From assembly GCA_024232355.1 (NCBI GenBank), contig JAAEPW010000647.1:1-49563 (forward strand): a stretch of DNA of 49,563 bases. The letters are read 5' to 3'. Below the pieces are notes generated by a model. That model saw only the letters and a program-made list of their open reading frames with translations, searched no databases and was not told the origin of the DNA. Each line of letters begins with the position of its first letter. The stretch's first letter is position 1. The position numbers were made by a program, and so were the translations under genes. Shown piece after piece: positions 18,057-34,818 of this stretch. The DNA is from Chloroflexota bacterium. Lineage in GTDB: Bacteria; Chloroflexota; Anaerolineae; B4-G1.

Positions 18057-19247
18057 CTAGTCGTTTATCGCTTCTGGCAATTTCTCCAGGATTTTCTGCA
18101 CGTTGGGCCGGTCGGTGGCATTCTGGCCAATATGGCTCCACGTGATACGACCATCTGTGTCGATAATGAACACGGATGGAGCAGCAAGTCTATCGCCCAG
18201 CAGATTGTACACGTCAAAAGCCTCGGCGGTTTGATGGTCAGCGTCGGACAACATGGGGTAAGCCGCATGCACGGTCTGACGTGCTCCATCGACCGATGAG
18301 AGGGAGGCAACGGCTAGCGCGACAACCTCGGCTCCAGCGTTCTGAAACGATCCATAATTTCTTTGCAACTCGACGAGTTGCGTACGGTCAGGCCCTCAGC
18401 CACATTTCTGGAAAAAGATCAGTACCACCGGGCCCTGCGCCAACTGATCCGATAGTGTAAACGTGTCACCTCCAGCCCGATCGAGGGTAAAATCAGGAGC
18501 ACTTTCAGGCTGCGCTTGATCAGCAGATGGAAGAGGAGAGGGGGTCGGCACAGTGACAGATGTGGCAGTTGCAAGCACGGGAGTAGGAGTAGAGACCGGC
18601 GAAGTATCTGGCTGCGCAAGCGGTGACTGTAACGGAGATTGGGCAACCGCCATTGGCACCTCTGCGCCTTCAAATGCCGGTTCGATCACGATTTCCGCGT
18701 TTGCCCGCTGCTCTTCCAACCAGGTTTCCGGTTCATATCCCTGGCTCTGTAACGCCTCCAGGCTCTCTTGGACTACCAATAGTCGCCCGATCGCGCGCAC
18801 GAGGTCTGCGCGAATCAGCCCTGCATCCTTCAGCGCCGTTACCACGGTCTCGTCGTTCACCCCCCAAGCGTCCTCCATCATGGCGATTCGTTCTTCGATC
18901 TGCTCAGTTGTCGCCGCTTGCTCTGAGGGAAACGCATTCACCACTAACTCCTCGTTGACCAATCGCTGTAGGGTTTCATCGGACGTGGGGATAGGCTGTT
19001 CGGCAAGCCCGCTCAACACTTGGTCGAGCAAAACTGATTTGAACCAGACAGAGTATCGGATCGGCTGACCGTTGACGCTGGCAACAACTGGATTTTCGTC
19101 CAATTCAACAGGGCTTGTTGGCGCAACCATTGGAGTAAGAGTCGATGGCTCACGCCCCAGGAACACCAGCAACAACGCCAACCCAAGCACCGCTACAATG
19201 CCAATGCCAAAAGCGATCCAGAGACGTGGGGTGGTTTCTTGATTCAT
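18057..19247 (-). CDS. Predicted selenoprotein: membrane-anchored SurA-like / peroxiredoxin fusion (in-frame TGA as Sec284)
   Basis: Read through one TGA, this is a continuous 396-residue frame. It has a membrane anchor (about residues 9-30), then a SurA_N-like helical chaperone region (about 50-195, beginning VVASVNGQPI) without a PPIase domain. A Ser/Thr/Pro-rich spacer (about 200-245) leads to a thioredoxin-fold AhpC/TSA domain (about 250-396) that should face the extracytoplasmic side. The TGA (18398-18396) is codon 284 in the context FFQKCG-TGA-GPDRTQL. Aligned with the family pattern FFRGxWCPxCRxQL, the TGA falls on the peroxidatic Cys, and the usual second Cys is Asp. The domain continues undamaged after the TGA (AAYPMLSD, VFIIDTDGRITW). 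A matching hairpin, a near-consensus promoter and an AAGGAGG Shine-Dalgarno (7-base spacing) argue against decay. The alternative is a nonsense mutation or a sequencing error in a Cys codon. The rest of the operon may be the methyltransferase and lipid genes downstream. Confidence 0.82.
18365..18381 (-). promoter_or_regulatory. Predicted bacterial SECIS element
   Basis: Fourteen bases after the TGA, the minus strand reads GCAACTC-GTC-GAGTTGC: a perfect 7-bp stem with a 3-base loop GUC. The apical loop starts 21 bases from the TGA and has G as its first base. This fits the published bacterial SECIS model: a short upper stem, a G in the first two loop positions, and a loop about 16-37 bases from UGA, as recognised by SelB. 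The hairpin lies inside the coding frame, as in other bacterial selenoprotein genes. Confidence 0.75.
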
Positions 19248-21298: not shown

Positions 21299-21327
21299 TT
21301 GCACAAGCGACCAAGTTGTGCTACACT
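21299..21327 (+). promoter_or_regulatory. Promoter of the aldehyde oxidoreductase operon
   Basis: TTGCAC (21299-21304), 17-base spacer, TACACT (21322-21327). The predicted start is near 21334. The leader of about 28 bases ends in GGGGGAGG just before the ATG at 21362. No operator-like palindrome was noticed around it. Confidence 0.65.
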
Positions 21328-21361
21328 TGCATTCTCATCCAAATCACAAGGGGGAGGTTCT

Positions 21362-23341
21362 ATGATCAACGGTTTTTTCGGCAAAATACTGCTGGTGGAT
21401 CTGTCGCAGGGAACAGTCGAGAAAGAGTCGTTGGATCCAACCATCTACCGGGCTTATTTGGGTGGATACGGATTGGGCATCCAGGTGCTTTACGAACGGA
21501 TGCCCCCTGGCGCGGATCCCTTGGGCGAGGAGAACATCCTTGGCTTTACCCCTGGATTACTCACCGGAACAGGCGTACCCTTTAGCGGACGCTTTATGGT
21601 CGTGGGAAAATCCCCCCTCACTGGCGGTTGGGGTGACGCCAACTGCGGCGGTCACTTTGGCCCAACATTGCGGGCCACCGGTTTTGACGGCGTGTTCGTC
21701 CGCGGTATCTCAACTGAACCTGTCTATCTGTTCATTGACAAAAAGGAAAACCGAATAGAACTGCGAGGCGCGCAGCACCTATGGGGCCTGGACTCGACCG
21801 AGACCGACCAGCAGATCAAAGAAGAACTAGGACGCGACGTTCGAGTGGTATGCATCGGCCCTGGAGGAGAAAAACTCTCCTTGGTCGCCGGAATCGTTAC
21901 CGACGGTGGACGGCTCGCTGCCCGGTCAGGACTGGGAGCCGTGATGGGGGCCAAGCGGCTCAAGGCAGTCGTGGTGCGAGGCAACCAACGGGTGCCGGTC
22001 CAGGACAAGGAAGCAATCTCTGGCCTGAACAAAGAATACCGTCAAATCTTTAGGGCCAAACCCTCTCCGATGTTCCGCTACCTCACCCGCATCACCCACT
22101 TGGTTCTCCCGATCATACGCCGGTTCGGCCTCAAGTTCCCGATGGACTCACCGCCGCCACTCGTCTATATCTACAAAGAGTACGGCACTTGCTCCGGCAC
22201 AGCCTTTTCTACCGAGATAGGCGACGCACCGGTCAAGAACTGGCAAGGATCAGGCGTACGCGATTTTCCTCTATCCCAAAGCGCCCTCATCAGTGATGAT
22301 GCCGTGATCCAACACCAAGTCAAAAACTATGGCTGCCAGCACTGTCCCCTGAGCTGTGGCGGTATTGTAAGCCTCAAGGGAAAACGGCACACAGTCAAAG
22401 AGACTCACAAGCCCGAATACGAGACACTGGCCGGTTTCGGATCGCTGCTGCTGAACGACGACCTGGAATCCATCATCGTGATGAACGATATATGTGACCG
22501 ATACGGCCTGGACACCATCTCGGTGGCAGCCATTGTGGCCTTTACTCTAGAATGCGTGGAAAAGGGCCTGCTCAGTCGAGATGAGGTCGATGGGCTGGAC
22601 CTGATATGGGGAAACGCCGACGCCATCATCGAGTTGGTGCACAAAATCGTCCGGCGGGAGGGGATCGGTGACCTCTTGGCCGACGGGGTGCAACGGGCCG
22701 CGGAGCGGATCAGGAAAGGGTCGGAAGCCTTTGCCATACACGTGGGCGGGCAGGAAATCGCGATGCACGACTCCCGGTTCGAGCCCATGATGGGCCTGGC
22801 CTACCAGGTCGATCCCACGCCAGGCCGGCACACCGTGGCCGACGGTGGCATCTACGAATTGCCATCATTGCGGGCAATCCTAGATTCGGAGAACCTGACC
22901 CCGCCGAAAAAGCACGAGTACGAGGGTAAGGGTACGCTTTTTGCGTGGGTGAACCGGTACATTCAAGTGGTGAACTGCGCGGGACTCTGCATGTTCTCGC
23001 TCGTTATGGGCCATCCACCAGTACGCGAGTGGATCAACGCGGCCACCGGATGGGACCTCAACCTGAAGGAACTGCTGCACATTGGCCACCGCATCCAGGT
23101 GCTACGATACGCTTTTAACCTGCGAGAGGGTATCCGGCCGAGGGATTTTGCTCTCCCTGCACGTGTCACCGGCAACCCGCCATTGAAGGAAGGCCCTCTG
23201 AAAGGAATCACCTTGGATATGGAGACCATGATAAAGGACTTTGATCAAGCGATGGGGTATAACGAAACAACCGGGATTCCTACTGAGGATTTATTGGAAT
23301 CGCTTGATCTGCACCAAGTGATCAAAGACTTGAGAGAGTAA
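21362..23341 (+). CDS. Tungsten-type aldehyde:ferredoxin oxidoreductase
   Basis: AOR-family enzymes oxidise aldehydes to acids with ferredoxin, using a tungsto-bispterin and a [4Fe-4S] cluster. The 659-residue protein has the N-terminal family pattern GFFGKILLVDLS, AYLGGYGLGI and the pterin region TGVPFSGRFMV with SPLTGGWGDANCGGHFG. Cluster ligands are C325, C328 and C332 (CQHCPLSC), with the fourth late in NCAGLCMF (C543). The start follows a GGGGGAGG Shine-Dalgarno. The next gene begins 3 bases after the stop. With a sugar kinase-aldolase fusion and transporter downstream, the likely substrate is a short aldehyde released by the aldolase, such as lactaldehyde or glycolaldehyde; that is inference. 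Cytoplasmic. It also implies tungsten and pterin cofactor supply elsewhere in the genome. Confidence 0.93.
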   Translation: MINGFFGKILLVDLSQGTVEKESLDPTIYRAYLGGYGLGIQVLYERMPPGADPLGEENILGFTPGLLTGTGVPFSGRFMVVGKSPLTGGWGDANCGGHFGPTLRATGFDGVFVRGISTEPVYLFIDKKENRIELRGAQHLWGLDSTETDQQIKEELGRDVRVVCIGPGGEKLSLVAGIVTDGGRLAARSGLGAVMGAKRLKAVVVRGNQRVPVQDKEAISGLNKEYRQIFRAKPSPMFRYLTRITHLVLPIIRRFGLKFPMDSPPPLVYIYKEYGTCSGTAFSTEIGDAPVKNWQGSGVRDFPLSQSALISDDAVIQHQVKNYGCQHCPLSCGGIVSLKGKRHTVKETHKPEYETLAGFGSLLLNDDLESIIVMNDICDRYGLDTISVAAIVAFTLECVEKGLLSRDEVDGLDLIWGNADAIIELVHKIVRREGIGDLLADGVQRAAERIRKGSEAFAIHVGGQEIAMHDSRFEPMMGLAYQVDPTPGRHTVADGGIYELPSLRAILDSENLTPPKKHEYEGKGTLFAWVNRYIQVVNCAGLCMFSLVMGHPPVREWINAATGWDLNLKELLHIGHRIQVLRYAFNLREGIRPRDFALPARVTGNPPLKEGPLKGITLDMETMIKDFDQAMGYNETTGIPTEDLLESLDLHQVIKDLRE

Positions 23342-23344
23342 ACT

Positions 23345-26300
23345 ATGAGCTCGAAATACTTGATGGGATTGGATGCCGGAGGCAGCGGTGGGCGTTGTCT
23401 GTTGGTCGAGGTCGAAAGCGGTCAGGTAGTGGTCGCTTCTCGCTCTTGGACGCACCGATCAGTTCCCGGTACCGGCGGCTGGGGATTCGATCTGGACCTG
23501 GGACAGTGCTGGGCCCTGCTGTCCGAAGCAGTGCACGAAGCGATGGAACAGATCGGCGCGACGCCCGATCAAGTGCTCGCCATCGCCGTTGCAAGTATGC
23601 GCCACACGGCCATCGTGCTCGACCGGGAGATCCGTCCAGTCTTGTCCACCCCCAACCGCGACGCCCGTGCCAGCGCCGAAGGAATGGGCTTGGCCGCCGA
23701 GTATGGCTCCGAGTTTCACCAACGCACAGGCCATTGGCCCAGCCCGATCTTTGCCGCTGCCCGGTTGCGTTGGCTGGCAGTCAACAACCCCGCAGGATTA
23801 GGGCGAGCGACCACCTTCCTCAGCCTCAGCGATTGGCTCAATTATAGAATGTGCGGCCGAATCGCTACTGAGGCATCTCAAGCAGGAGAGACATTGCTGT
23901 TCGACCTGGAAACCCGCGACTGGGCTTGGGACCTCATCGAATTGCTAGATTTGCCCAGACAGCTTTTCCCACCAATCCGACAGACCGGGAGCCATTTGGG
24001 TGATCTAAGCAAACGGGCCGCCAATGCCCTTGGTCTAAAGTCAGGCACACCAGTCGCCGTGGGTGGGGCCGACACTCAGTGCGGTCTACTCGGAGTGGGA
24101 TCTGTTGCGGCAGGTCAGATGGGGGCCATCGCCGGAACTAACACACCGGTGCAGCTCGTAGTGAACCAACCGCTGGTAGACCCTGATGCACGTATGTGGA
24201 CTAGCCATCACGTGATACCGAATTTGTGGGTGCTGGAAAGCAATGCAGGGACTGCGGGTGATGCCTTGGAATGGTGCGCCAGCGCGTTCTACCCGAACGT
24301 CTCCCAACCGTTGGCATGGCTCTCCGCTGAGGCAGCCCAGTCCGTACCGGGCGCTATCGGCATTCTCTCAAACGTCGGCGCCGACGTGATGAACGCCAGC
24401 CAAATGACCTTGCCCACTGAGAACCTGACAATGACGCATATAGCGGCTGCCCAAGACCCGAGCAAGCGGCGTCACCTGGCACGAGCCATCCTGGAAGGCA
24501 TGGCATACGCGCTGCGCGCAAACGCCGAACAAATCCTCTCTGTGGCCGAAAAAAAACAACCGTCACTCGGTCTGGCGGGCGGTATGGCCCATAGTTCCCT
24601 ATGGACGCAGATCGTTAGCAACGTATTGAATGTTCCCGTAGACATACCGGTAACGACGGAGGCCACGGCCTTGGGCGCAGCCATCTGTGCGGGTGTGGGC
24701 GCTGGTGTCTTTCGCAATCTGTCCGAGGGAGCCGAAACCCTGGCCCGCATTGCCCAGCAGCATGAACCAGACCCCCATCAGGCGCAGACCTACCAGGGGC
24801 TATACGCAAGTTGGACACAATTGCGAGAAACCCGCGCCACGGCCGATGATCCGTTGCTGGTCATGCCCAACATCATCACCACCCCACACGCCAACGGCAA
24901 CACCGTTAAAGTGGGCGCTCCCCAGGAGCACGTCACCGCTGATGCTGCACAACAACTGATACACGGTGAAGAACCCCATCACAGCCTCAACCCGGAAGCA
25001 ACGCTCAAGCTCCGCGGGTCAGAGCCTCGCGAGTCACCCTCTCCCGAGGCTCTGACCAAGTTGGGCAAAGAAGAGGTATCTGCCATAAGCAATTTAGAAT
25101 TAAAAGAGATGAAAGAACTGAAACAAACACCATCCACAACCCCAGAAGCACAATTAGAAAGAACCGTCGGCAAGGGATTATCCAGGCTGCGCAGTCTAAG
25201 AGATCGCCTGAGCCGCAAACCCGCGTCAGCCGCCGAACCGCCCGCCAACCCGCCTACTGGTGGATCGACGAAAGCACAAATGGAGCGTGTATTGCGGGCC
25301 TTTGTGACCCACGCGGCCAACGATCCGGCACTGCAAGACTTTAGCACCGGCCAAAAAGTGACGATGCACTATGTGGTGAGCGACCTGGGAATCGAATTCT
25401 ACACGAGCTTTCACGATGGTCAGGTTGCGGGTGACATGGGCGCACCACCCGTCCCGGCCCAAGTACGCCTCAAGATGAAAGCGAACGTGCTGGATGACAT
25501 GTTCACTGGTCGGATCAACGCCACCCGCGCCGTGATGACGGGCAAGATCTCCTTCAGTGGCGATACACGGTTGGCAATGGAGATGCAGCGCATCCAGAAG
25601 GATCTGAACCGACTCTACACCCTAGCACGAAAAAAAGTCGGCGCTGGTGATCTGGACCTGACGCCAGCGCTAGAGACAACGCCACCGCCTACACCAGCAG
25701 CAACGACGGCAGCATCGGCCATTCCCTCGCCCTCGAACGGGCTCCGAGAGCAAATGGTAAAAATCGTGACCGCACTATACACCACCGGCCTCATCACTGC
25801 CACCGGCGGCAACGTCAGTGCCAGAATCCCCGGCACTGACCACGTCTTGATCACCCCTAGCCAACTTTTCAAGGGGGATCTGCGCCCCGGCGTTTTGGTT
25901 CGCATCGACATGAAAGGCAAAGCACTGGACCCCGATGCGCTATCGCCGTCCAGCGAGTGGCCGATGCACAACACCATCTACCAGGCCCGGCCAGACGTAG
26001 AGGCCATCATTCACACCCACGCGCCCCAAGTGACCATCCTGGGACTTGCCGACCTGCCCTTTACTCCCATTTCCACCGAGGCCGCATTCCTGGGCGACCT
26101 GCCCCGGATACCGTTCATCATGCCCGGCACCAATGAGCTGGCCCAGGCCGTGATGGAGGCATTGGGAGATGGAGTGGCAGTACTGATGCAAAATCACGGC
26201 CTGACTGTAGCGGGCAGCAGTCTGCGCCGGGCCGCCATCCTGTCCGAGATTATTGAGCGGACGTCCGAAGTCATCCTAGGATGCTACGCTGTGGGCAAAG

Positions 26301-26365
26301 AGCCCCCCACTCTACCTGAGAGCGCGGTTGCAGTGCTGCGGGAGATGGGTAAGATGATGGCATAG
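23345..26365 (+). CDS. Triple fusion: FGGY sugar kinase - SCP2-like domain - class II aldolase
   Basis: A 1006-residue protein carrying two consecutive enzymes of ketose breakdown. Residues 1-500 are an FGGY kinase: MGLDAGGSGGRCLLVE at the start, GGADTQCGLLG in the hinge, and the LAGGMAHSSLWTQIVSN adenosine motif. Residues 500-640 are a low-complexity, charged linker. Residues 642-765 resemble an SCP2 sterol-carrier domain (KVTMHYVVSDLGIEFYTSF ... TRAVMTGKISFSGD). Residues 797-1000 are a class II (zinc) aldolase: phosphate-binding TGGNVSARI, the Glu in SSEWPMHN, zinc ligands in IIHTHAP and the MQNHGL His. The frame is continuous, with no stop or frameshift. Kinase plus aldolase would convert a ketose such as rhamnulose, fuculose or ribulose into DHAP and a small aldehyde. 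It begins 3 bases after the AOR gene. Confidence 0.9.
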   Translation: MSSKYLMGLDAGGSGGRCLLVEVESGQVVVASRSWTHRSVPGTGGWGFDLDLGQCWALLSEAVHEAMEQIGATPDQVLAIAVASMRHTAIVLDREIRPVLSTPNRDARASAEGMGLAAEYGSEFHQRTGHWPSPIFAAARLRWLAVNNPAGLGRATTFLSLSDWLNYRMCGRIATEASQAGETLLFDLETRDWAWDLIELLDLPRQLFPPIRQTGSHLGDLSKRAANALGLKSGTPVAVGGADTQCGLLGVGSVAAGQMGAIAGTNTPVQLVVNQPLVDPDARMWTSHHVIPNLWVLESNAGTAGDALEWCASAFYPNVSQPLAWLSAEAAQSVPGAIGILSNVGADVMNASQMTLPTENLTMTHIAAAQDPSKRRHLARAILEGMAYALRANAEQILSVAEKKQPSLGLAGGMAHSSLWTQIVSNVLNVPVDIPVTTEATALGAAICAGVGAGVFRNLSEGAETLARIAQQHEPDPHQAQTYQGLYASWTQLRETRATADDPLLVMPNIITTPHANGNTVKVGAPQEHVTADAAQQLIHGEEPHHSLNPEATLKLRGSEPRESPSPEALTKLGKEEVSAISNLELKEMKELKQTPSTTPEAQLERTVGKGLSRLRSLRDRLSRKPASAAEPPANPPTGGSTKAQMERVLRAFVTHAANDPALQDFSTGQKVTMHYVVSDLGIEFYTSFHDGQVAGDMGAPPVPAQVRLKMKANVLDDMFTGRINATRAVMTGKISFSGDTRLAMEMQRIQKDLNRLYTLARKKVGAGDLDLTPALETTPPPTPAATTAASAIPSPSNGLREQMVKIVTALYTTGLITATGGNVSARIPGTDHVLITPSQLFKGDLRPGVLVRIDMKGKALDPDALSPSSEWPMHNTIYQARPDVEAIIHTHAPQVTILGLADLPFTPISTEAAFLGDLPRIPFIMPGTNELAQAVMEALGDGVAVLMQNHGLTVAGSSLRRAAILSEIIERTSEVILGCYAVGKEPPTLPESAVAVLREMGKMMA

Positions 26366-31768: not shown

Positions 31769-32365
31769 ATGTTTATTGGTATTTATCAATCGGCTACGAT
31801 CTTGCTAGGAATCATTACGTTCTACATCATAGATTTTGTACTCATCACCCGTTACGATAAACAACGACAAGCCAAAGGTAGTGGGAGAAGCTGGGGATAC
31901 ACAACTATGGCCATCATTGTGGTTATATTCATCATTGTACAACCCATCGCATTGCCGCAGTTAAGCGTGCATACCAAAGCCTGGTGGGGTGCATTGACCC
32001 AAGTAATTGGCACAATGTTAATCGTCAGTGCACTGATTGTCCAAACATGGTCACGAGTACACCTGCGGCAGTTTTACGCTGAACGGGTCGAGGTCCAACC
32101 AGGACATTTTGTGGTAGACAGTGGACCGTATGCTCATGTGCGCCATCCATTCTTCACTTCATTATTCATGTTTGTAATCGGGCTATTACTGACAAACCCA
32201 GCACTACCCACACTACTGATAGCCATTTATGTTTTTTGGGATTTTCCTCGAGCAGCAAACCAGGAAGAAGCATTACTCAGCAAGAACTTGGCAGGTTACG
32301 CAGACTATATGGCTCGCGTCCCCCGCTTTTTTCCAAGGTTTCACAAACAAGCAGGAGACAATTAG
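31769..32365 (+). CDS. Isoprenylcysteine carboxyl methyltransferase-like membrane protein
   Basis: A 198-residue membrane methyltransferase of the ICMT/PEMT-like family. It has about five hydrophobic helices. The C-terminal SAM-binding part contains GPYAHVRHPFFTSLF (the H-x-x-HP motif), then NQEEALLSKNLAGYADYMARVPRFFP (paired acidic residues and the R-x-P-R-F end), all family marks. Start ATG 31769 has AGGAGAGGG upstream. The tuberculosinol synthase-like gene begins 3 bases after its stop, so the two are cotranscribed. In this setting it may methylate an isoprenoid or terpenoid acid, or it may be an unrelated lipid methyltransferase. Confidence 0.8.
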   Translation: MFIGIYQSATILLGIITFYIIDFVLITRYDKQRQAKGSGRSWGYTTMAIIVVIFIIVQPIALPQLSVHTKAWWGALTQVIGTMLIVSALIVQTWSRVHLRQFYAERVEVQPGHFVVDSGPYAHVRHPFFTSLFMFVIGLLLTNPALPTLLIAIYVFWDFPRAANQEEALLSKNLAGYADYMARVPRFFPRFHKQAGDN

Positions 32366-32367
32366 CC

Positions 32368-33279
32368 GTGGATGCCAAAGCATTTCAGAATTTGTCCACC
32401 AAAGAAATCGCCCGACTGGTATGTGAAACAGGGCCAAAGGTGTGTGTTTTTCCCATCAATGGCACCCGGCGTTGGTTTATGCTAGAACATCCAGAACAAG
32501 CAGCGACAGATTTTGCGAACACCTATCTACGAATTACGTGGCAACGACAGATCGAACTCTACAAGCTGTTCTTTGATCACGGTATTAATACATTGCTGAC
32601 TCCTATCTTTGGGCCAGATCTGCTAGAACGCGGAGATGAATACCAACGGCTTTTGGAACCAGGGCTATTGTGGTTTACGCAAAATCAAGACATGCTGGAC
32701 TTTTACGACGCGTACGACGTGCGAGTACGCGTTTATGGAGACACCCATCGTCATTTTAGAGATACCCCCTACGCCCACACGCTGGACGCCTTTGAGGAAC
32801 TAGCTCAACGGACAGCCCAGCACAAATGCCACAGACTGTTCTTTGGCATCTGTGCTCACGATCCATCAGAAACTGTGGCCGAAATTGGTGTCCGCTTTCA
32901 GCAAGAACACGATCAGCTGCCAAATAGGCGACAGATCATAGAGGCATATTATGGCGAGTACGTTGAACCAGTAGACTTTTTCATCGGCTTTGATCGCTTT
33001 ACCGCATTCGATATGCCCCTGATTTCTACTGGCAATGAAGATCTATATTTTACCATCAGTCCATCTCCGTATTTGGATACTCGTGTCCTACGAATGATCT
33101 TGTACGATCACCTATATACCCGTCGCATAGACAAAGCCAATTACGAAACCCTATCGCCCAAAGACTGGTCTTGGATGAAGGCTTTTTATCAAACGAACCG
33201 AGACAAAGTCCTAGGAATAGGAATAGAACGGGGAGGAATTTGGTATCCAGTTTGTAGAAATGAAGAGTGTAACACATAA
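32368..33279 (+). CDS. Tuberculosinol/kolavelool synthase-like protein (Rv3378c family)
   Basis: A 303-residue protein of the cis-prenyltransferase fold. It resembles M. tuberculosis Rv3378c (tuberculosinol / tuberculosinyl-adenosine synthase) and Herpetosiphon kolavelool synthase. Matching stretches are GPKVCVFPINGTRRWFMLE, LFFDHGINTLLTPIFGPDLLERGD, the REIIEAYYGEYVE-like segment (QIIEAYYGEYVEPVDFFIGF) and LYFTISPSPYLDT ... ILYDHLY. As I recall Rv3378c, it has Asp in FDGTRRWF; here that residue is Asn31. The GTG start (32368) is chosen for AGGAG ten bases upstream and for length (Rv3378c is about 296 residues). It would act on the cyclic diphosphate made by the cyclase at 33322, removing diphosphate to give an alcohol or transferring the prenyl group. 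Confidence 0.87.
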   Translation: MDAKAFQNLSTKEIARLVCETGPKVCVFPINGTRRWFMLEHPEQAATDFANTYLRITWQRQIELYKLFFDHGINTLLTPIFGPDLLERGDEYQRLLEPGLLWFTQNQDMLDFYDAYDVRVRVYGDTHRHFRDTPYAHTLDAFEELAQRTAQHKCHRLFFGICAHDPSETVAEIGVRFQQEHDQLPNRRQIIEAYYGEYVEPVDFFIGFDRFTAFDMPLISTGNEDLYFTISPSPYLDTRVLRMILYDHLYTRRIDKANYETLSPKDWSWMKAFYQTNRDKVLGIGIERGGIWYPVCRNEECNT

Positions 33280-33321
33280 ATAAAAACACAACTGACTTTT
33301 GAATAACATTGAGGACAATCA

Positions 33322-34818
33322 TTGAAATTAGAAACCCAAGTTCGTGAGTTGATAAAAGGCTTGAAGGGACGTATGGGGCCTAGCCCATACGACATTGCCT
33401 GGATGGCAAGAGTACCTGACCACACAGGAGACGGCCTGCGCTGGCCATATCTGATTGATTGGTTAATTGAACATCAGCGACAAGATGGCAGTTGGGGAGG
33501 GCCGATCTATTACTACCATGACCGAATCCTGTGTACGCTGACGACCATTATCGCACTCAAGGATAGCCAACAAGAGCCCGCCGTTGACCAAGCCATTAGG
33601 CGAGGGCAAAAATACATCTGGCACAATCTACACCGATTACATCACGACCCCTTTGAATTGGTTGGATTCGAATTGATCATGCCTACCTTGTTGATAGAAG
33701 CATTGGATCTGGGTCTGGATATTCCCAGACATACTTGTGGCTATGGACGAATTCGCAAGGAAAAGCTCAATCTCATTCCACCGGCGCTGCTCTACTCGCC
33801 CAAGATTACAATCGTTCACTCACTCGAGTTCCTAGGAAAAGACGGCAACCCCGAACAAATGCGCCAAGCAATAGCAGAAAATGGAAGCCTGGGAAACTCG
33901 CCAGCCACAACTTGCTACTATTTGCTCCGAGGAGGCGACGACGACCGGACACTGAACTATCTCGAAAACATGGTTCGTCACAACAAAGACATCATTTATC
34001 TATACCCCTGTCGTACCTTTGAACTAACTTGGGTCTTACATAATCTGTCTTTTTGCGATAGGCCGCTCACAGACCTGGTAGAAGCCTCGATCTGGAAAGA
34101 GTTACTAGACAATCTAGGAAAAAGGGGGATTGGTCTAGATTCAAGCTTTGGCATTGAGGATGGCGACATCACATCGGTAACTATGCGACTATTAACGATG
34201 GCCGGTTACTCGCTAGATCCAGAAATTCTGGCGCGATTTGAAGTCCGGGACAAATATATCTTTCGCACCTACGAGTATGAGCGGAATCCCAGCATTGGTA
34301 CCAACGTCCACGCCCTAGAAGCCCTCAGCCTGCTTCCCCACTATCCAAATAGGGATGAAAGTAAAGATCGTATTCTCGCCTTTCTCATGTCCAATCGTAT
34401 TTTCGATACGTACTGGGTGGATAAATGGCATGCATCTCCCTATTATGCGACCGCTCACGTATTGATAGGAATATCAAAATCCGCTCCGGGGATGCTCCGC
34501 GAATGCCACAGTACGGTCGAATGGTTAACACACACACAACGCAAAGATGGATCTTGGGGATTCTTTGATTGCGGAACAGTCGAAGAAACAGCTTATGTCC
34601 TAACAGCACTCTTGTATGCCACCCGACTCTTTTCTATAGACCGAGATTTGTTGCGACGAAGCGTGGCATATCTGTACCACGAAACCGGGGGACAGTTTGC
34701 CGATTACGACTATCCACCGCTCTGGCTCGGAAAACTTTTGTACGTTCCCCACGACATTGTCCAAGCCTCAGTCCTGTCGGCGCTTATGCTATATGAAAAA
34801 ACCTTTGGTCCCACATAA
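33322..34818 (+). CDS. Class II diterpene cyclase (Rv3377c-like)
   Basis: A 498-residue bacterial class II terpene cyclase, expected to protonate and cyclise geranylgeranyl diphosphate to a bicyclic (halimane- or clerodane-type) diphosphate. It resembles M. tuberculosis Rv3377c and Herpetosiphon Haur_2145. The N-terminus has YDIAWMARV and QRQDGSWGG. The acid motif is EDGDITSV (E279, D280, D282), matching the EDxDTTSV variant of Rv3377c rather than a plain DxDD. Later come DKWHASPYYATAH and QRKDGSWGFFDCGTVEETAY, with two QW-like repeats. The start is a TTG (33322) with GAGGA upstream. It follows the Rv3378c-like gene by 42 bases. No geranylgeranyl diphosphate synthase is in view. Confidence 0.92.
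   Translation: MKLETQVRELIKGLKGRMGPSPYDIAWMARVPDHTGDGLRWPYLIDWLIEHQRQDGSWGGPIYYYHDRILCTLTTIIALKDSQQEPAVDQAIRRGQKYIWHNLHRLHHDPFELVGFELIMPTLLIEALDLGLDIPRHTCGYGRIRKEKLNLIPPALLYSPKITIVHSLEFLGKDGNPEQMRQAIAENGSLGNSPATTCYYLLRGGDDDRTLNYLENMVRHNKDIIYLYPCRTFELTWVLHNLSFCDRPLTDLVEASIWKELLDNLGKRGIGLDSSFGIEDGDITSVTMRLLTMAGYSLDPEILARFEVRDKYIFRTYEYERNPSIGTNVHALEALSLLPHYPNRDESKDRILAFLMSNRIFDTYWVDKWHASPYYATAHVLIGISKSAPGMLRECHSTVEWLTHTQRKDGSWGFFDCGTVEETAYVLTALLYATRLFSIDRDLLRRSVAYLYHETGGQFADYDYPPLWLGKLLYVPHDIVQASVLSALMLYEKTFGPT

Follow-up and report, generated by a model that had tools for sequence, protein, structure and literature searches.

The window, by which we mean the whole 49,563-nucleotide stretch of Chloroflexota DNA analysed here, carries a minus-strand gene (19247-18057) whose product we read, with a probability of roughly 0.8, as an outward-facing, membrane-anchored fusion of a SurA-like domain with a selenocysteine (Sec)-containing redoxin domain that probably acts as a thiol-disulfide oxidoreductase through a C-G-U motif. 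The placement of Sec at codon 284, already proposed in a preliminary description of the sequence, is strongly supported by the conserved point at which relatives are truncated, by matching orphan C-terminal halves, by a SECIS-like hairpin that TGA-bearing redoxins of other phyla also have and by the Cys found at this position in the relative P0189. That description mentioned neither the membrane anchor at the N-terminus nor the SurA-like domain, nor how large the family is. The subfamily is new, within the known kind of Prx-like selenoproteins.

The frame runs from an ATG at 19247 to a TAG stop at 18059-18057 and holds one internal TGA only, at 18398-18396 (codon 284). Read through, it encodes 396 amino acids with U284, and the sequence around the interruption is VLIFFQKCG-U-GPDRTQLVELQ, in which Cys282 (18404-18402) is the sole Cys besides codon 284 and makes the C-G-U motif. 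In the read-through protein the Pfam AhpC-TSA profile spans the TGA (residues 249-370, E 5.1e-24, 85 bits), and the N-terminal half alone scores 19 bits against this profile, under the cut-off of 26. The frame and this match bear out the earlier statement that the minus-strand frame continues through a single TGA with domain character on both sides. The expression signals that had been pointed out are likewise present: the Shine-Dalgarno sequence AAGGAGG (19261-19255) lies 7 nt upstream of the ATG, and a sigma-70-like promoter, TTGACA-16-TATGAT (19308-19281), matches the consensus at 11 of 12 positions. No tRNA was found within the window.

Judging from the protein sequences in databases, gene callers appear to cut such genes in two at codon 284. 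A search of the read-through protein against ~5.8 billion proteins gave 160 hits, and the best 120 of these, the window's own N-half included, were analysed. All of the best 120 of 160 stop at the interruption within one codon and none passes it; counted from the FF-like pair, the end coincides with that of the window's N-half in 94 of the 120 and lies one residue further on in 26. The final residue of these listed N-halves was Gly in every case, the last two residues being CG in 83, GG in 29 and another residue plus G in 8. The Cys before the final Gly is thus absent in 37 of the 120, and the C-G-U motif is not universal. The 26 N-halves that end one codon later, P0027 and P0029 among them, have FFQRGGG*-like tails with no Cys just before the stop. 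Cys was scarce elsewhere too: apart from the tail motif, 113 of the 120 listed N-halves are free of it, as are 64 of 67 C-halves.

These 67 C-halves, proteins of 65-105 residues that include the window's own piece, were retrieved with the 112 residues after the TGA as query. They sit in databases as orphan ORFs, several of them labelled 'peroxiredoxin'. Besides those of the window there are 119 N-half protein clusters, counted among the matches listed, and 66 C-half clusters, and the homologues with an organism in the source name are assigned to Anaerolineae, Chloroflexi or Chloroflexota. Among the 120 N-halves and 67 C-halves, 11 N/C pairs, window included, have equally long longest contigs, which is a proxy for a shared contig and not proof of one; when the lengths were shifted by 1-40 bases, the mean number of matches was 0.84 and the maximum 4. 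An additional pair, P0210 with P0164, brings the pairs besides the window to eleven. In 11 of these 11 pairs identity to the window was higher for the C-half (57-81%) than for the N-half (48-61%, P0210 being a short form of which only 93 residues aligned). The better conservation of the C-half argues against its decay or lack of translation. Conserved coding sequence on both sides of an in-frame TGA, as expected of a selenoprotein gene, is accordingly what we found, the TGA itself being seen in the window only; the stop codon of the relatives is, by extension from this one DNA sequence, probably TGA. Family-member DNA was sought in other collections: one scan of genome contigs returned two distant redoxins only, three scans of viral contigs and the search of phages returned none, and 12 plasmid records matched in the redoxin domain only, with 36-38% of the query covered in the 10 that were listed. 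Two short forms, P0198 and P0210, have an N-terminus that looks hydrophobic by eye, followed by a linker and the CG* tail of the family, with no SurA-like stretch, which indicates that the fusion partner is not obligatory.

A SECIS-like hairpin (18381-18365; GCAACTC-GTC-GAGTTGC) follows the TGA after 14 spacer bases, with the perfect 7-bp stem and the GUC loop that the preliminary description had given it. A stem-loop just downstream of the TGA with a small apical loop containing G is the criterion stated for bacterial SECIS elements in PMC1088965, and the window hairpin has this form. Of 5000 synonymous recodings, 25 produced a perfect stem of at least 7 bp in the scanned range with a G in the first two loop bases (30 if no G was required), and such stems followed 42 of 11338 codons of the 24 window ORFs taken as genes (73 if no G was required). 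The exact geometry, with the loop starting 21 bases after the TGA, a 3-nt loop and a stem of at least 7 bp, occurred at 0 of the 11338 background codons. The folding energy of the hairpin was unimpressive (z -1.50, -0.24 and -0.97 for three lengths), 4.9% of 2000 synonymous recodings folding as well as this region, and Rfam gave no family at threshold and two chance-level matches under a loose limit.

As controls we used 48 TGA-bearing redoxin loci from two other phyla, namely the rows with one TGA among the matches listed, in which Sec is itself inferred. When L012 was the query, a TGA lay in the aligned stretch of 47 of the 48 controls, at the U284 position in 29, three codons later in 17 and unplaced in 1; L016 had no TGA in the stretch aligned with L012, and a search with the window placed its TGA at U284. 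The best perfect stem had at least 5 bp and an early loop G in 24 of the 29 U284-position controls, compared with 833 of 11314 background codons, and 6 of the 29 (4 distinct sequences) reproduced the window geometry exactly, with stems of 7 bp or more. L012 has the same stem with a GTG loop. Covariation was computed for the window together with 10 of the 29 controls, chosen because their hairpin lies at the window offset or one base away from it, which amounts to 9 distinct rows, 8 of them from other phyla; L034 was omitted, its stem at this place having 5 bp and a better one lying elsewhere. In this set 95.2% of the cells pair and 5 of the 7 pairs change on both sides. The covariation score was 0.468 against 0.167 in shuffles, of which 0 of 500 reached it, and at most 0.103 when the pairing was slid. 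The count of further pair types was not unusual, being reached by 57 of 500 shuffles.

A covariance model (R1), for which 8 control rows were used and the window was left out, found the hairpin as its best match in the window (29.4 bits, E 3.9e-5; the next scored 10.2). We give this match little weight because 8 spacer bases are skipped in it and a chance TGACCGTAC takes part. This out-of-frame TGACCGTAC, at 18390-18382, resembles the start of TGA codons in the UxxC redoxins of other phyla and was taken as coincidental. Applied to 34 other loci, R1 gave 14 places up to E 1, with L027 and L028, copies of a building row, among them. From the redoxin-gene TGA onward L025, L027 and L028, which belong to three genomes, have identical bases. 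The control genome G001 contains SelA (573 bits), and its locus L031 carries a TGA where the window has codon 284. In L036, from another phylum, the redoxin TGA (220-222) lies in U-P-K-D, which means that UxxD is not unique to the window protein.

These results bear on other ways of accounting for the TGA. It might stem from a sequencing error in a TGC or TGT, or the gene might be a pseudogene with a nonsense mutation; the DNA comes from one contig only, and a single base parts TGA from TGC or TGT. But 119 other listed clusters end within one codon of the same point and the C-half is conserved, and we regard error or gene decay as extremely improbable. A real stop that yields two polypeptides, the N-half and a re-initiated C-half, would explain why gene callers report both halves. 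Such a stop, however, would fall inside the thioredoxin fold, before helix 286-296 of the structure model, no Shine-Dalgarno sequence could be seen upstream of the TTG at which the C-half would start, and the hairpin has SECIS geometry; the chance of this arrangement is minimal. Decoding of the TGA as Trp, Gly or Cys is compatible with an in-frame TGA, and Cys would fit the alignment too. Of the stops of the 24 window ORFs taken as genes, though, 11 are TAA, 9 TGA and 4 TAG, so TGA is otherwise an ordinary stop here and a code-wide change is unlikely; we consider this kind of decoding very improbable. Insertion of Sec at codon 284 is the reading that we retain, with high confidence.

The domain layout was examined with structure models. 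An AlphaFold2 model of the full-length protein, made from a 71-row alignment with U284 entered as Cys (mean pLDDT 81.5, pTM 0.52), showed a low-confidence helix at residues 9-29. A helical domain at ~50-190 and the redoxin fold were both modelled with confidence, and the linker is disordered; in the redoxin fold, residue 284 stands immediately before helix 286-296. The redoxin domain (residues 248-391; 18506-18075) was recognized by Pfam, where Redoxin matched as well as AhpC-TSA, in the AlphaFold2 model and by Foldseek, which placed Bcp4, PrxA, ResA and AhpE among the top ranks, Bcp4 and PrxA above ResA; the best PDB sequence match was an AhpC/TSA protein. The predicted N-terminal membrane helix (residues 9-29; 19223-19161) is hydrophobic by eye and is a helix in both models, with low pLDDT in the full-length model and higher pLDDT in a model of the N-half (41 rows, pLDDT 78.9). 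When the N-half model was submitted to Foldseek, the first 15 ranks comprised 13 SurA chains, one SurA-like chaperone and one hypothetical protein; SurA led with a best E of 3.4e-4, and only 2 SurA matches had E of 0.001 or lower. By Pfam profile, SurA_N_3 (PF13624, cut-off 27.2 bits) came just under the cut-off in the relatives P0115 (25.3) and P0120 (26.4), and no SurA match was obtained in the window's N-half, P0002, P0003 or P0196. The SurA-like helical domain (residues 50-190; 19100-18678) is thus assigned by fold in the models and by Foldseek, with scores below the curated PF13624 value. We consider it highly likely that the protein is a membrane-anchored SurA-like/redoxin fusion.

The residue at codon 284 was then compared with that of 47 full-length relatives (P0189-P0239 of the third protein search minus the N-half types P0192, P0196, P0198 and P0210). 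The residue aligned with U284 is Thr in 38 of them, Cys in 7 and Ser in 2, and the best-scoring full-length relative, P0189, has CxxC at this position. Of the Cys expected at position 284 in homologues, 7 of the 47, P0189 among them, give an example, and the Thr and Ser majority does not. A HMMER alignment to ResA paired U284 with the first Cys of CEPC; the second Cys of this motif was paired with Asp287 (18389-18387). The TGA had been said to align with the peroxidatic Cys of AhpC/TSA proteins, and this claim did not survive the alignment of the 47 relatives and ResA, after which we dropped it: codon 284 corresponds to the Thr of TxxC or to the first Cys of CxxC, and the peroxidatic position, the C of TxxC and the second Cys of CxxC, is occupied by Asp287. 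From the earlier label of a new selenoprotein peroxiredoxin, the Sec stands, and a peroxiredoxin with Sec at its peroxidatic Cys does not.

The second position of interest is Pro357 (18179-18177), which is aligned with the Pro of ResA LPTTF and lies in the stretch A-[AV]-P-[STA]-[VT]-[FI]. Each of the 67 C-halves has Pro there; with a stricter pattern the count was 61 of 66. In the 47 relatives a rough pattern made the residue readable in 30, with Arg in 23 and Pro in 3, and failed in 17. An active-site Arg is a hallmark of peroxiredoxins. The window protein has the AhpC-TSA/Redoxin fold of a peroxiredoxin but not these active-site residues: U is at the Thr and Asp at the C of TxxC, and the Arg position, located by pattern and ResA alignment, holds Pro. 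With respect to ResA/TlpA-like proteins, the Pro next to the active site is present, and the redox-active CxxC is replaced by U284 at its first and Asp287 at its second position.

A true Sec-dependent peroxidase of the peroxiredoxin kind, in which Sec284 would attack peroxides and Cys282 or thioredoxin would resolve the product, seems to us rather unlikely on this evidence. The Pfam matches to AhpC-TSA and Redoxin, the top Foldseek ranks of Bcp4 and PrxA and the AhpC/TSA protein that is the best PDB sequence match all agree with it, and Sec peroxiredoxins are known (PMC13188914, Table 1). Against it stand Asp287 at the peroxidatic position, Sec at the Thr of TxxC, and Pro where Arg stands in 23 of the 30 pattern-readable relatives. 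We somewhat favour a thiol-disulfide oxidoreductase over a peroxidase.

Among known systems, the Prx-like UxxC/UxxU thiol:disulfide oxidoreductase selenoproteins (PF00578; PMC13188914, Table 1; UXXC in PMC1088965) have Sec at the same aligned position, and several TGA-bearing redoxins of this type have a hairpin at the window's offset. The window protein differs from the UxxC proteins in its UxxD and C-G-U motifs, its membrane anchor and its SurA-like domain, and is 20-31% identical to the listed UxxC control rows. Its best NCBIfam match was the SelL-related redox protein NF040769 (62.4 bits, E 4e-17, below the cut-off of 120), a model of 173 positions with no room for the SurA-like domain. 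ResA has a membrane anchor. It resembles the window protein in its fold, in the first Cys of CEPC that aligns with U284 and in the kept Pro, and differs in that the window has Asp287 for the second Cys, Sec for Cys and an added SurA-like domain; the ResA model NF002854 scored 41.6 bits, below the curated 170. The SurA chaperone core has the same fold as residues 50-190, SurA_N_3 remaining just under the cut-off in two relatives, but no prolyl isomerase domain was detected in the window protein, which has a redoxin domain instead. The TxxU-type Sec peroxiredoxin PrxU has the AhpC-TSA fold and Sec in common with it; the Sec of PrxU, however, occupies the peroxidatic position, three residues further on, and the window's C-half scored 12.5 bits against NF040737, whose cut-off is 270.

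A 2026 review (PMC13188914) counts 119 prokaryotic families, including Prx-like UxxC/UxxU, Prx TxxU and CxU thioredoxin-like proteins. In its Table 1, where some rows give no motif, neither a SurA-redoxin fusion nor a UxxD motif was seen, and 'chloroflex' is absent from its main text. Among the titles listed in literature searches, none named a SurA-redoxin selenoprotein. Other Prx-like selenoprotein fusions, some with unknown domains, are described in PMC2398784, and the window fusion may be identical with one of them. Sec-specific translation factors have been reported from Anaerolineales single-cell genomes, and the Sec proteins so far reported from Anaerolineae are formate dehydrogenases (PMC4959059). 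For almost all selenoproteins, Cys homologues are numerous (PMC12013277). No Cys form of the SurA-like/redoxin fusion was present among the best 120 of 160 hits, which makes a case for asking why Sec is kept.

In the mechanism that we propose, SelB would bind the hairpin just 3' of UGA284 and bring Sec-tRNA. The predicted N-terminal helix would anchor the product, which would face outward and whose domains would follow in the order anchor, SurA-like domain, low-complexity linker and ResA/TlpA-like redoxin domain. Sec284 would occupy the nucleophilic first position of CxxC and, with Cys282 as the only sulfur, would probably cycle via a C-G-U selenenylsulfide. In this way the fusion would probably reduce or rearrange disulfides, perhaps in clients held by the SurA-like domain. 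The joining of a SurA-like domain to a redoxin suggests a role in protein folding, not detoxification. More tentatively, the family could be an obligate-Sec outward folding factor of Anaerolineae that combines a SurA-like core and a redoxin and has as redox groups only Cys282 and Sec284, or Sec alone in the Cys-less branch; if true, selenium would serve in the oxidative folding of proteins outside the cytoplasm. Rejoining the split N- and C-halves would add a selenoprotein subfamily in Anaerolineae.

Other genes in the window have features of their own. In a single ORF at 23345-26365, an FGGY carbohydrate kinase is joined to an SCP2 domain and a class II aldolase; directly before this ORF lies an aldehyde ferredoxin oxidoreductase gene (21299-23341). 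A gene at 32236-34818 has a squalene-hopene cyclase C-terminal domain and adjoins a 347-aa ORF without a Pfam match; as a guess, these two may form a terpenoid pair.
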